From: Solirubrobacteraceae bacterium
Lineage (GTDB): Bacteria > Actinomycetota > Thermoleophilia > Solirubrobacterales > Solirubrobacteraceae
Reading direction: 5' to 3'
Assembly: GCA_030690545.1 (NCBI GenBank)
Contig: JAUYGN010000056.1
Coordinates: 1-64,000, forward strand
DNA: 64,000 nucleotides
Of this stretch, positions 9,289 to 51,887 are shown in pieces (the first letter of the stretch is position 1; each line of letters begins with the position of its first letter). Under the pieces are notes generated by a model. It made no database searches, was not told where the DNA came from, and worked only from the letters and a program-made list of their open reading frames with translations. The position numbers and the translations under genes are program-made.

Positions 9289-9765
9289 ATGAACGAGCAG
9301 ACAGGGCCGGCGAGCGAGACCGAGACCGAGGTCGCGGTGCAGCTTGCGGAGATCGAGGTCGATCCCCCGCGGGTCGGGATCATCATGGGCTCCAAGAGCG
9401 ACATGGACGTGATGGACGGCGCCGCGAGCGTCCTGCGCGAGGCGGGCGTCCGCCACGAGGTGCGGGTGATGTCGGCGCACCGCGAGCCCGAGCTCGTCGC
9501 CGAGTACTGCCGCAACGCCCGCATCCGGGGCGTGCGCGTGATCGTCGCCGGCGCCGGCCTGTCGGCGGCGCTGCCCGGCGTCGCCGCCGCGCACACCGAC
9601 CTGCCGGTGATCGGCGTCCCGCTGTCCAGCCGGCTGTCGGCGATGGGCGGGCTGGACGCGATCCTGTCGGTCCTGCAGATGCCGCCGGGCGTGCCGGTCG
9701 CGGGTGTCGGCCTGGACAACGCGAAGAACGCCGGGCACCTCGCGCTGCGGATCCTGCGCAGCTGA
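9289..9765 (+). CDS. purE: N5-carboxyaminoimidazole ribonucleotide mutase
   Basis: PurE class I converts N5-CAIR to CAIR. The protein has 158 residues, with an N-terminal extension of about 28 residues that the family usually lacks. It has GIIMGSKSDMDVM (30-42), the catalytic SAHREPE (about 62), AGAGLSAALPGVAA and GVPLSS. A GAAAGGA site lies about 8 nt before the ATG. purK is not next to it and is not in the window. Confidence 0.95.
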   Translation: MNEQTGPASETETEVAVQLAEIEVDPPRVGIIMGSKSDMDVMDGAASVLREAGVRHEVRVMSAHREPELVAEYCRNARIRGVRVIVAGAGLSAALPGVAAAHTDLPVIGVPLSSRLSAMGGLDAILSVLQMPPGVPVAGVGLDNAKNAGHLALRILRS

Positions 9766-9836: not shown

Positions 9837-9886
9837 CGCCCAAGGGACGCCACCGTCGTACAACGCGAACCGAAAGGACACGCGTC

Positions 9887-10153
9887 ATGACCGCACAGCC
9901 GATGTACATCTCCGACCTTCCCGAGAGCCTCACCGGAGACCCGCTGGCCACTCGCGCCGGCGCCGCGCGCGCCGTCGCCGAGCAGGAGGGGGTCGCGACG
10001 CTCGCGATCGACGAAGAGGTCGACGACCCGACCACGCTCGCGGTCGACGAGGACGGTCTGTCCGGCGAGGAGCCGACGACGCTCGCGATCGGCGAGGAGG
10101 GCGACGACGACGTCACGACCCTCGCCATCGGTGAGGAGGCCGGCGCCTATTAG
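9887..10153 (+). CDS. graspetide (plesiocin-type) RiPP precursor peptide, four cores
   Basis: An 88-residue acidic peptide with no recognised fold. The first 35 residues are leader-like (ISDLPESLTGDPLATRAG). Four repeats follow: ATLAIDEE (37-44), TTLAVDED (49-56), TTLAIGEE (64-71) and TTLAIGEE (77-84), separated by short acidic linkers, and the tail is AGAY. TTxxxxEE is the core signature of plesiocin-type graspetides, in which Thr hydroxyls are esterified with Glu side chains by an ATP-grasp ligase. Such a ligase starts 7 nt after this stop codon. An AAAGGA site sits 8 nt before the ATG. The first two cores are degenerate (Ala for Thr; Asp for the last Glu). The assignment is inference from motif plus neighbour. 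Confidence 0.85.
   Translation: MTAQPMYISDLPESLTGDPLATRAGAARAVAEQEGVATLAIDEEVDDPTTLAVDEDGLSGEEPTTLAIGEEGDDDVTTLAIGEEAGAY
9995..10138 (+). repeat. four tandem core repeats of the graspetide precursor
   Basis: The DNA of the cores is itself repetitive: ACGCTCGCGATCG or close variants recur at core starts. Core starts are 12, 15 and 13 codons apart. This fits expansion by local duplication, with cores 3 and 4 identical at protein level. Confidence 0.8.
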
Positions 10154-10159
10154 GCGCCG

Positions 10160-11113
10160 ATGAAGCCGGGCATCATCGGCCCGGCGCACGATCCGCAGGT
10201 CCGCCGTGTGGCGCGCCGCCTGCGCGAGCTCGATGCGACCGGGCCGGTGGTCCTCGACCTGTCGCGCTTTCCGGGCAGCGGGCGCGCCTCGCTCGTCGAC
10301 GGCGTGCCCGCGTGCCCCGGTGTGGACGTCGGCGCCGTGGGCTGCTGGTACCTGCGCTCGATGCCGCTCGCGCTGCCGTTTCAGCCGCTCCGCGAGGTCG
10401 ACCCGCACGGCTCCGCGACGGCGCTGCTCGACGCAGCCCGGCGCGCGTTCGCCGCCGGGCGCGAGCGGCGCTCCTTTCTGGCGAGCTTCGTCGCGGGGCT
10501 CGCACGCGCCGGCGCGACGCTCGTCAACGCGCCCGCGGCGGCGGCCCAGCACTTCCTCAAGCTCGAGCAGCTCGAGCTGCTGCGCGCGGCGGGGGTCCCG
10601 CTGCCCCGCACGCTGGCGACGAACGACCCCGAGGCCGTCGCCGACCTCGCCGCGAGCCTCGACGGCGCGCTTGTCTACAAGCCGCTCGCCGGCGGCGGGC
10701 TGTGTCGCCGGGTGACCGACGACGACCTGCGCCCGCAGCGTCTGCGCGCGCTCGCAGCCGCCCCGGTGCTCTTTCAGGAGGAGATCCCGGGACGCAACAT
10801 CCGCGTGTACGTCGTCGGCGGCCGGATCGCGGCGTCGTATGAGATCGCATCCGACGAGCTCGACTACCGTGGCGCGGAGACCTCGGTGCGGACCGCCGAG
10901 CCGAGCGATGCGGAGCGCGCGGCCTGCATCGCGGCGGCGGCGGCCTGCGGCATGACGTTCACGGGAATCGACGTCCGGCGCCGGCCGGATGGCAGCTTCG
11001 CGTTGCTGGAGTGCAATCCGTCGCCGATGTTCGCGGCGATCGAGCGGCGGACCGGTGGCGCACCGGTCACAGAGATGCTGGCGAATCTCCTCCGCGGCGC
11101 TGCGCTGAGATAG
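10160..11113 (+). CDS. RimK-like ATP-grasp ligase, putative graspetide synthetase
   Basis: A 317-residue ATP-grasp enzyme. The ATP-binding part shows LVYKPLAGGGLC (about 170), VLFQEEIPGRNIRVYVVGG (about 207-225) and the metal-binding GIDV and LLECNPSPMF (Glu284, Asn286). The N-terminal 110 residues are unlike RimK or glutathione synthetase and may hold the leader-binding site, as in MvdC/MvdD and PsnB. By neighbour logic it forms omega-ester (or omega-amide) links between Thr and Glu/Asp of the peptide encoded 6 nt upstream. No N-acetyltransferase, protease or dedicated transporter is adjacent. Confidence 0.85.
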   Translation: MKPGIIGPAHDPQVRRVARRLRELDATGPVVLDLSRFPGSGRASLVDGVPACPGVDVGAVGCWYLRSMPLALPFQPLREVDPHGSATALLDAARRAFAAGRERRSFLASFVAGLARAGATLVNAPAAAAQHFLKLEQLELLRAAGVPLPRTLATNDPEAVADLAASLDGALVYKPLAGGGLCRRVTDDDLRPQRLRALAAAPVLFQEEIPGRNIRVYVVGGRIAASYEIASDELDYRGAETSVRTAEPSDAERAACIAAAAACGMTFTGIDVRRRPDGSFALLECNPSPMFAAIERRTGGAPVTEMLANLLRGAALR

Positions 11114-11208: not shown

Positions 11209-11910
11209 GTGAGAAGGCGATTCTCGAACCGCCGGCCTCCACACGGGCCTCACGGACCGCTCGACGAACGGGCGCGGATGCTGCTGCGCGGAACGGGCAA
11301 GCTCGTGGCGGTCGTCGTGCTCGCGGGCGCGGCGGGGGTGCTGCTCGGGATCGGCCTCGCCGCGCTGACCGGCGACGACGCGCCCTCGCCGTCAGCGAGC
11401 GGCTTGGCCGCCGCGACCGCCGGTTCGACCCCGGCGACGCCCGCCCAGGTGACCACGACGACGACCAGCACCACGGCGGGCCAGCCCGGCCGGACCGCCG
11501 CAGCGCCGGCGACGACGACGCCCGCGACGATCTCCAGCGGCGGCAGGCTGCGCGTCGACGTCATCTCGACGATCGTCCATCCCGTGGACACCCCGGCCGC
11601 CGGCAGACGAGAACGCGCGCAGACCGGCGTGCACGTGCGCCTGACAAACAACACCGGCTCGAGCTTCGCGCTCGCCCCTGCGCAGCTGATCGTCGGCGAC
11701 CGGGTGCTGCTCCCGGCGCCGCCGGACAGCTCCAGCGCCGACCCGTTCCCGACTGCGCTCGATGCCGATGCCGTCCTCGACACGACGCTGCGATTCGACA
11801 GCGAGGGGATCGCCGCCGGACGGCTCGCCGCCGCGCCCGTCCGCCTGCGGATCGCCACGAAGATCATCCGGGTCGCGCCGATCGTCGGGTCGCCGGTCTC
11901 CGGTCGCTGA
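11209..11910 (+). CDS. membrane-anchored secreted protein, paralog A
   Basis: One N-terminal membrane segment (LVAVVVLAGAAGVLLGIGL) is followed by a Ser/Thr/Ala/Pro linker and a beta-rich domain of about 110 residues (VHVRLTNNTGSSFALAP, TLRFDSEGI) resembling DUF4352-type extracellular folds. The ATG at 11278 would start directly at the membrane segment. The GTG at 11209 is preferred because the downstream paralog keeps an ERARLLLRG stretch matching ERARMLLRG here; its ribosome binding site is poor. Function unknown. It follows the graspetide ligase by about 100 nt with a TATGCT box at 11146, so it may be a separate unit. Confidence 0.6.
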   Translation: MRRRFSNRRPPHGPHGPLDERARMLLRGTGKLVAVVVLAGAAGVLLGIGLAALTGDDAPSPSASGLAAATAGSTPATPAQVTTTTTSTTAGQPGRTAAAPATTTPATISSGGRLRVDVISTIVHPVDTPAAGRRERAQTGVHVRLTNNTGSSFALAPAQLIVGDRVLLPAPPDSSSADPFPTALDADAVLDTTLRFDSEGIAAGRLAAAPVRLRIATKIIRVAPIVGSPVSGR

Positions 11911-12029
11911 GCAACCTGCGCGCGTCGCAGGCACGCCGGCGAGCGCGACCATGAGCTGCCGCGCCCGCACGCCCGCACGTCGGCGCTCTGCGGTGCGGCG
12001 TCGATCTATGCTGCGCAGCAGGCCAGGCG

Positions 12030-12698
12030 ATGCCCCGTCACGAGAGAGCCCGACTGCTGCTGCGCGGCGCGACCAAGCGGCTGGTCATCGTGCTCCTCGC
12101 CGGGAGCGTGGGGGTGGGTCTCGGGCTCGGACTCGCCGCACTGCTCGGCGACGACGACCTGCCACGGCCCGCGACCACCGCGAGCGCGCCGGCCGGCAAC
12201 GCAACGACGCCGGCAGGCTCCTTCTCGACGCCCCCGACCACCCCGACCCCGTCGCTTGCTCCCGCCGATCGCACGGCGCCGGCGTCTCCGCCGGCCGTAC
12301 CGCCCGATCCGCGCCGGCAGCTGCGCGTGAGCGTCGGCCCGGCCGTGCTGCACCCGGCGGCGTCGGCATCGGGGCAGCGCCGCCAGCGCGCTCGCCTCGG
12401 GGTGCGGCTCGAGCTGGCCAACCTGGCCGCGGAGCCCGTCACGCCCGCTCGGCCGGTGCTGCTGGCGGCCGGTGAGCGCGTCGCGACCGACCCCAGGCAG
12501 GACGCGCCCGACACGCATATCGGTCCGCTGGCGCCGGGCGCGACGGCCGGGGTCACGCTGCGCTTCGAGACGTCCGGAGCGGTCACGGAGCAGCTCACGA
12601 CACAGCGACAGGCACGGATCCTCGTGGCCGGGCGCATGCATGCGGTCCGCGTCACGATCGGGGAGCGGGCACGCCCGTCCGGCTCCGGCTCCGGCTGA
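12030..12698 (+). CDS. membrane-anchored secreted protein, paralog B
   Basis: A 222-residue tandem paralog of the preceding gene. It shares ERARLLLRGATKRL, one membrane segment (VIVLLAGSVGVGLGLGLAAL), the GDDD motif after it, a Pro/Thr/Ser linker and a beta domain with LRVSVGPAVLHPA and VTLRFETSG matching LRVDVISTIVHPV and TTLRFDSEG of paralog A. The topology predicts a short cytoplasmic N-terminus and an extracellular domain. No enzyme motif is visible. Confidence 0.65.
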   Translation: MPRHERARLLLRGATKRLVIVLLAGSVGVGLGLGLAALLGDDDLPRPATTASAPAGNATTPAGSFSTPPTTPTPSLAPADRTAPASPPAVPPDPRRQLRVSVGPAVLHPAASASGQRRQRARLGVRLELANLAAEPVTPARPVLLAAGERVATDPRQDAPDTHIGPLAPGATAGVTLRFETSGAVTEQLTTQRQARILVAGRMHAVRVTIGERARPSGSGSG

Positions 12699-50615: not shown

Positions 50616-51887
50616 GTGATCGATCGCTACACCCGTCCCGAGATGGGCGCACTCTGGACCGACGAGGCGCGGATGGAAGCCTGGCGCCGCGTCGAGGTCG
50701 CCGCCTGCGAGGCGATGGACGGGCCGACCGAGGCCGAGCTGGACGCGATCCGCGCGGCGACCTTCACCGTGCGGGCGGTGCAGGAGCGCGAGGCGATCAC
50801 CGACCACGACGTCGCCGCGTTCGTCGACGTCCTGAGCGCGTCGGCCGGCGACGCCGGGCGCTGGATCCACTTCGGCCTGACGTCGAGCGACGTGCTCGAC
50901 ACGGCCACCGCCGTGCAGCTGCGCGCCGCCGGCGAGATCGTGCTGAAGGGCGCGCGCGAGCTCGTCGAGGCACTCGCCGAGCGCGCCCGCGAGCACGTCG
51001 ACACGGTCTGCGTCGGGCGCACGCACGGCGTCCACGCCGAGCCGACGACGTTCGGCGTCAAGCTGGCGGGCTTCGCGATGGAGGCCCAGCGCAACGTCGA
51101 GCGACTGCAGCGCGCGTTCGCGCAGGTCAGCGTCGGCGCGATCTCCGGCGCCGTCGGTACGTACTCGGCGACGTCGCCGGAGTTCGAGCTGCGCGTGCTG
51201 CAGCGACTCGGCCTCCAGCGCGAGCCCGTCTCGACGCAGGTCGTCGCACGCGACCGCCACGCCGAGCTGCTGCAGGCGATCGCGCTCGCCGGCGCCGGCC
51301 TGGAGCGCTTCGCCACCGAGATCCGCCACCTCCAGCGCACCGAGGTGCGCGAGGTCGAGGAGCCGTTTCGCAGCGGCAAGCAGAAGGGCTCGAGCGCGAT
51401 GCCGCACAAGCGCAACCCGATCACGACCGAGCGGATCACGGGCTTGGCGCGCGTGCTGCGCGGCAACGCCTCAGCCGCCGTCGAGAACGTCGCGCTGTGG
51501 CACGAGCGCGACATCTCGCACTCCGGCGCCGAGCGCGTGATCCTGCCCGACTCGCTGATCCTGCTCGACTACCTCCACTCGCTCGCGATCCGCGTCGCGC
51601 GCGGCATGGTCGTCCACGCCGACCGCATGCGCGAGAACATCAACCTCACGTACGGCGCGCTGTACTCCCAACGCGTCCTACTCACCCTCGTCGCAAGCGG
51701 GACCGGGCGCGACGAGGCCTACCGGATCGTCCAGCAGGCCACGCAGCGCGCATGGGACGAACGCACCCCCCTGCGCGAGCTGCTCGCAGCGCAACCCGAG
51801 CTCGGCCTCGACCTCGACGCCGTCTTCGACCTCAGCGCCTACACCCGCCACGCCGCACAGATCGTCGCACGACTCGACGAACAGTAA
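50616..51887 (+). CDS. purB: adenylosuccinate lyase
   Basis: PurB acts twice: SAICAR to AICAR, and adenylosuccinate to AMP. At 423 residues it has the normal short bacterial form. Landmarks: HFGLTSSDVLDTATAVQL (about 87), GRTHGVHAEPTTFGVKLAGF (catalytic His region), and the signature GSSAMPHKRNPITTERITGL (about 259). The enzyme is a cytoplasmic homotetramer. It stands alone, 3.8 kb from the purC cluster, separated by accessory genes. Confidence 0.97.
   Translation: MIDRYTRPEMGALWTDEARMEAWRRVEVAACEAMDGPTEAELDAIRAATFTVRAVQEREAITDHDVAAFVDVLSASAGDAGRWIHFGLTSSDVLDTATAVQLRAAGEIVLKGARELVEALAERAREHVDTVCVGRTHGVHAEPTTFGVKLAGFAMEAQRNVERLQRAFAQVSVGAISGAVGTYSATSPEFELRVLQRLGLQREPVSTQVVARDRHAELLQAIALAGAGLERFATEIRHLQRTEVREVEEPFRSGKQKGSSAMPHKRNPITTERITGLARVLRGNASAAVENVALWHERDISHSGAERVILPDSLILLDYLHSLAIRVARGMVVHADRMRENINLTYGALYSQRVLLTLVASGTGRDEAYRIVQQATQRAWDERTPLRELLAAQPELGLDLDAVFDLSAYTRHAAQIVARLDEQ

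Follow-up and report, generated by a model that had tools for sequence, protein, structure and literature searches.

A two-gene, plesiocin-type graspetide system very probably lies behind purE in a 64,000-nucleotide stretch of DNA from a Solirubrobacteraceae bacterium (contig JAUYGN010000056.1, positions 1 to 64,000; hereafter the window). ORF A would encode the precursor peptide and ORF B the ligase that modifies it. A preliminary description, made from the letters alone, had proposed this reading, and it was upheld by a ligase of PsnB type (in sequence, tree and predicted structure) and by the plesiocin-type leader and core motifs of the peptide. The marks of plesiocin-type membership that were found include a full-length ligase of the PsnB clade, ATP-grasp residues, repeated TTxxxxEE cores (a rule broken by core 1) and an LFIEDL-type leader. 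The class is already known, with more than 21,000 graspetide members predicted by 2026 (PMC13097080); the pair adds a plesiocin-type member with two unusual cores and leaves the understanding of the class unchanged. The features of the locus are as follows.

9872..9877, + strand: Shine-Dalgarno-like AAAGGA 5' of ORF A, read directly from the sequence
9887..10153, + strand: ORF A, predicted graspetide precursor peptide of 88 aa (leader motif, four repeats, homologous peptides 5' of homologous ligases at 28 of 34 loci)
9902..9919, + strand: predicted leader recognition motif MYISDL, residues 6-11, counterpart of PsnA2 LFIEDL
9995..10018, + strand: core repeat 1, ATLAIDEE, residues 37-44; first Thr missing, position 6 D and not G
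10031..10054, + strand: core repeat 2, TTLAVDED, residues 49-56; positions 6 and 8 are D
10076..10099, + strand: core repeat 3, TTLAIGEE, residues 64-71; identical to the PsnA2 core in PDB 7drm
10115..10138, + strand: core repeat 4, TTLAIGEE, residues 77-84; likewise identical to that core
10141..10159, + strand: perfect 8-bp inverted repeat CGGCGCCT-ATT-AGGCGCCG, spanning the ORF A stop and ending just before the ORF B ATG
10160..11113, + strand: ORF B, predicted PsnB-type ATP-grasp graspetide synthetase of 317 aa (profiles, PDB sequence search, tree, alignment, AlphaFold model, Foldseek)

The purE gene ends at 9765, 121 nt before ORF A, and 6 nt separate the ORF A stop from the ORF B ATG; both ORFs were found where the preliminary description had located them. 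Codon-position GC (0.75/0.48/0.91 for ORF A and 0.77/0.56/0.91 for ORF B) was as in genuine host genes. A scan for a sigma-70 promoter, ill-suited to this 74% GC host, found none. The inverted repeat at 10141-10159 had a shuffle z-score of -2.2, its sequence is not conserved in relatives, and it is only suggestive of an element that damps translation of the ligase below that of the precursor.

The ATP-grasp ligase

ORF B was found by Pfam to contain a RimK-like ATP-grasp domain, and its top NCBIfam model was the ATP-grasp peptide maturase TIGR04187 (87.5 bits), ahead of the RimK-family (62.9 bits) and LysX models. Although the TIGR04187 score is below the cutoff of 350 bits, the authentic PsnB of Plesiocystis pacifica also scored only 95.9, and the shortfall is therefore taken as a limit of the model. 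When the PDB was searched by sequence, the best match was PsnB (7drm, E 2.8e-46, residues 5-298), compared to 6e-13 for the next graspetide ligase (9bou) and about 2e-10 for RimK proteins. The AlphaFold model of ORF B (pLDDT 92, pTM 0.89) was compared to the PDB by Foldseek, and PsnB chains occupied all of ranks 1-15, with MdnC (5ig9), PruB, AMdnB, CdnC, MdnB (5ig8) and RimK lower. All 29 columns invariant across 23 aligned homologs are kept in ORF B, including K134, K174, D271, E284 and N286, which we take to be ATP/metal residues of the ATP-grasp fold; the sites that had been called intact are all present.

Across 84,980 named genomes that were scanned, 48 loci were found, and a tree of 52 rows was built with RimK as outgroup. 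ORF B fell in a seven-member subclade (SH-aLRT 98) with ligases of Streptosporangium subroseum, a Thermomicrobiales MAG and four Pseudonocardia, which are also its closest relatives at 57-66% identity. This subclade is nested in a 32-member group (support 90, not above 95) that includes PsnB and also holds Bacillota, Melainabacteria/Omnitrophota and myxobacterial ligases. By contrast, MdnB, MdnC, AMdnB, CdnC, PruB and a Streptomyces TgmB-type enzyme formed a separate group. The comparison with graspetide synthetase groups that had been proposed as a check thus returned PsnB as top match and grouped ORF B with it, and the clustering with RimK or LysX that would have spoken against the reading was absent. 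Membership in the RimK/LysX family was rejected on the weaker NCBIfam, PDB and structure matches and on the position of the RimK rows outside; a microviridin-type (MdnB/MdnC) ligase was likewise rejected, as these enzymes form a separate clade and ORF A has no PFFARFL leader.

Compared to known systems, ORF B is homologous over its full length to the ligase of plesiocin (PsnA2/PsnB, P. pacifica, graspetide group 2) at about 35-37% identity, and the two loci share an LFIEDL-type leader, four cores per precursor and a precursor directly 5' of the ligase. They differ in gene gap (6 nt in the window vs about 115), in the GG site that follows the leader in plesiocin but not in ORF A, and in the degenerate cores 1 and 2 of the window; in addition, a HlyD-type gene was read after the P. 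pacifica ligase (L030, 6931-7899), whereas the window has none. The thuringinin, microviridin, fuscimiditide and PruB-type graspetides share the enzyme class (ATP-grasp) and the kind of ring chemistry; the microviridin and PruB ligases lie in other clades, in a tree that was built without the thuringinin and fuscimiditide ligases. The leaders and core spacings of these four types differ from the plesiocin type (PMC8939145, PMC12291112). The RimK/LysX/ArgX amino-acid ligases have the ATP-grasp fold in common with ORF B, are weaker matches and have no repeat-peptide partner.

The precursor peptide and its cores

ORF A (MTAQPMYISDLPESLTGDPLATRAGAARAVAEQEGVATLAIDEEVDDPTTLAVDEDGLSGEEPTTLAIGEEGDDDVTTLAIGEEAGAY; 88 aa, 9887-10153) has 22 acidic vs 2 basic residues and four 8-residue repeats, at residues 37-44, 49-56, 64-71 and 77-84. 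The acidic peptide with four repeats was thus as first described, but a TT start was found in only three of the four cores and a canonical core in only two. Cores 3 and 4 are the same in every letter as the TTLAIGEE core of PsnA2(14-38), the chain co-crystallised with PsnB (LFIEDLGKVTGGKGGPYTTLAIGEE). When ORF A was shuffled 20,000 times, the repeat pattern arose as a single copy once and as two copies never, and three general [TS][TS]x4[ED][ED] motifs arose in 7 of 20,000 shuffles.

Cores 1 and 2 depart from those of relatives. Among 91 relatives' cores judged real (six more regex matches, considered by eye to be linker or tail, were left out), position 6 was G in 90, C in one and D in none, and position 1 was T or S without exception, compared to A in core 1 of ORF A. 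The degeneracy of cores 1 and 2 may represent partial erosion or tuned heads.

Distribution and genomic setting

PsnB-like loci were surveyed across several phyla (n=34, window included), and 28 of the 34 were found to have a peptide with leader and TTxxxxEE motifs directly upstream of the ligase. These peptides carry leaders of the [L/M/H][F/Y]I-x-[D/E]L type and one to nine TTxxxxEE cores. Of the remainder, L020 carries its cores in an ORF that the contig cuts off, L019 lies at the edge of a contig, and no precursor match was found at L031, L035, L037 and L038. The peptide-ligase pair, which the preliminary description had suggested looking for in related genomes, does recur at most of these loci. 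Within the order, neither the pair nor a PsnB-like ligase of the ORF B clade was detected in 231 other genomes, and no close ligase lacking the peptide, an observation that would have counted against the reading, was found. Three other genomes of the order matched the TTxAxGEE pattern in DNA; these matches (two in an ORF resembling a 2-oxoacid:ferredoxin oxidoreductase subunit, the third in an unrelated long frame) were taken as chance.

The novelty of host and product had been overstated: pairs of the same subclade are present in Actinomycetota (Pseudonocardia, Streptosporangium) and in a Thermomicrobiales MAG. These pairs (L011-L016: S. subroseum, Pseudonocardia spp. and Thermomicrobiales MAG YPbin5) have the two-gene layout of the window, with gaps of -1 to 65 nt, and leaders similar to that of ORF A (F/Y-I-x-D-L-P-x-S/T-L/V in most). 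Unlike cores 1 and 2 of the window, their two to six cores each hold G at position 6 (TTxAxGEE). One of these loci, L015, has a different strong hairpin in the same place as the 10141-10159 repeat. The preliminary description was right that the set is minimal, consisting of two genes only, but this is not unusual, as the subclade conserves the two-gene set and other groups have it (PMC13097080), with groups 27, 28 and 35 already described as two-gene graspetide groups in the same work. Since the six nearest pairs have no other neighbour in common, save between two sister Pseudonocardia, the bare precursor-ligase pair is the norm of the subclade. No export, protease or immunity gene was found next to the pair in the window, which counts against the graspetide reading; loci of this kind, however, generally do not encode the leader protease (PMC8939145).

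The pair forms the purE edge of an interval of about 41 kb (9766-50615) that separates purE from purB (at 50616). A purE match was found in five of six congeneric genomes, and in four of those five purB is within 1 kb of purE. Between the congener purE and purB are a short remnant-like protein in one genome (G069) and an AbrB-PIN pair in another (G072); in the fifth genome with a purE match (G071) polysaccharide-type genes follow purE. In the window, the interval has many glycosyltransferases, an ABC-2 exporter membrane protein, a Wzz/kinase-like chain-length protein and a weak O-antigen-ligase match, together with several PIN/antitoxin-like genes; it resembles a polysaccharide island that either was inserted into the purine gene cluster or expanded inside it. 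There is no sign that the pair is functionally tied to purine synthesis. The pair was probably acquired horizontally, which is the simplest reading given that its nearest relatives are in other orders and phyla and that it was not found in the 231 other genomes sampled from the order. With this pair, plesiocin-type graspetides reach an actinomycetote order whose other sampled genomes all lack them, and the signs of horizontal spread are clear. No relative was found on viral contigs, and plasmid matches were distant.

Several other loci were noted in this search. PsnB-like ATP-grasp ligases occur in archaea, on a plasmid of Halocatena salina (L007, 4001-4912, 37-39% identity), where no precursor is recognisable, and in a Haloferacaceae MAG (L045, 873-1514), where no TTxxxxEE precursor is recognisable nearby; it is possible that these are graspetide-like systems with other substrates. 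Five loci of the same family or phylum (L002-L006), with 35-40% identity over part of the protein, were set aside as other than a PsnB-type pair, with L002, L003 and L006 in a different clade. The ATP-grasp genes of L002, L003, L005 and L006 are outside the PsnB-type group and no precursor was noticed with them; L003 (about 239-2238) and L005 (about 662-2328) have a second ATP-grasp-like ORF immediately upstream. In the window itself, downstream of ORF B at 11260-12698, are two paralogous proteins (35% identical over about 200 residues); in each, a membrane segment at the N-terminus precedes a Thr/Pro-rich stretch and a C-terminal domain. They have relatives in the genus and matched no Pfam family.

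Proposed product and alternative readings

In plesiocin, nested T1-E8 and T2-E7 pairing closes the rings of each core. By analogy, ORF B would bind the ORF A leader through MYISDL and, with ATP, phosphorylate Glu (or Asp) side chains of the repeats, after which the hydroxyl of a Thr within the repeat concerned would displace the phosphate to form an omega-ester bond. Nested T1-E8 and T2-E7 esters would then give a two-ring hairpin at each canonical core. This scheme follows the known course of graspetide synthetases, which phosphorylate a carboxylate with ATP prior to attack by a hydroxyl or amine (PMC13097080), and of plesiocin, in which each repeat has two esters in a ring-within-ring hairpin and more cyclised motifs give higher inhibitory potency (PMC13097080, PMC12291112). 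Judged by the residues they contain, cores 3 and 4 are predicted to become bicyclic, core 2 could do so with Asp replacing the outer Glu, and core 1 would form at most one ring because it has only one Thr. A maximum of seven water losses (7 x 18 Da) would be expected, one ester from core 1 and two from each of the other cores. A multi-headed serine-protease inhibitor is the probable product, which a protease encoded elsewhere would release.

A product mixed by design, in which two heads are normal and bicyclic, a third is bicyclic through closure by Asp and the fourth is monocyclic, with D in place of the near-invariant turn G in cores 1 and 2, is conceivable though doubtful; if true, one chain would have graded or different inhibitor specificities. 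The same two cores, together with the lack of the pair in all congeners and of an adjacent dedicated exporter, could instead indicate a locus that was gained horizontally and is decaying, with its product no longer made. We consider such decay quite unlikely, as neither ORF is disrupted, every family-invariant column is retained in the ligase, two cores are perfect, and the GC3 of both genes is near the value of host genes. Whichever holds for cores 1 and 2, the pair is a compact two-gene test case for the tolerance of a turn D, an outer-acceptor D and the loss of an outer Thr by one ligase.

The function of a modified peptide could also differ. Repeats rich in Asp/Glu (22 of the 88 residues) might point to a metal-binding or signalling peptide, and rosaritide, another graspetide, gave no growth inhibition in one reported panel (PMC13097080). 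Every graspetide characterised by the time of a 2022 survey, however, was a protease inhibitor (PMC8939145), and the core here is the same as that of PsnA2, such that a metal-binding or signalling role appears rather unlikely. A reading without a graspetide, in which ORF B is a RimK-like glutamate ligase acting on an acidic peptide or a cell protein and the ORF A repeats are a mere acidic tail, would agree with the Pfam RimK domain and the RimK-family NCBIfam score, but is highly improbable given that PsnB is far ahead of RimK in sequence and fold, that RimK is outside in the tree and that TTxxxxEE repeats accompany such a ligase across many phyla.

For the favoured protease-inhibitor graspetide, export by the only C39 transporter of the genome was considered and not favoured, since that gene is on another contig beside its own GG-leader peptide and ORF A is without GG. 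At that second locus (L081, 4924-7502), a peptide of 86 aa with a DLEAVVGG leader and a Gly-rich tail comes after the C39-peptidase ABC transporter gene, and the two form a putative locus for an unmodified double-glycine bacteriocin.
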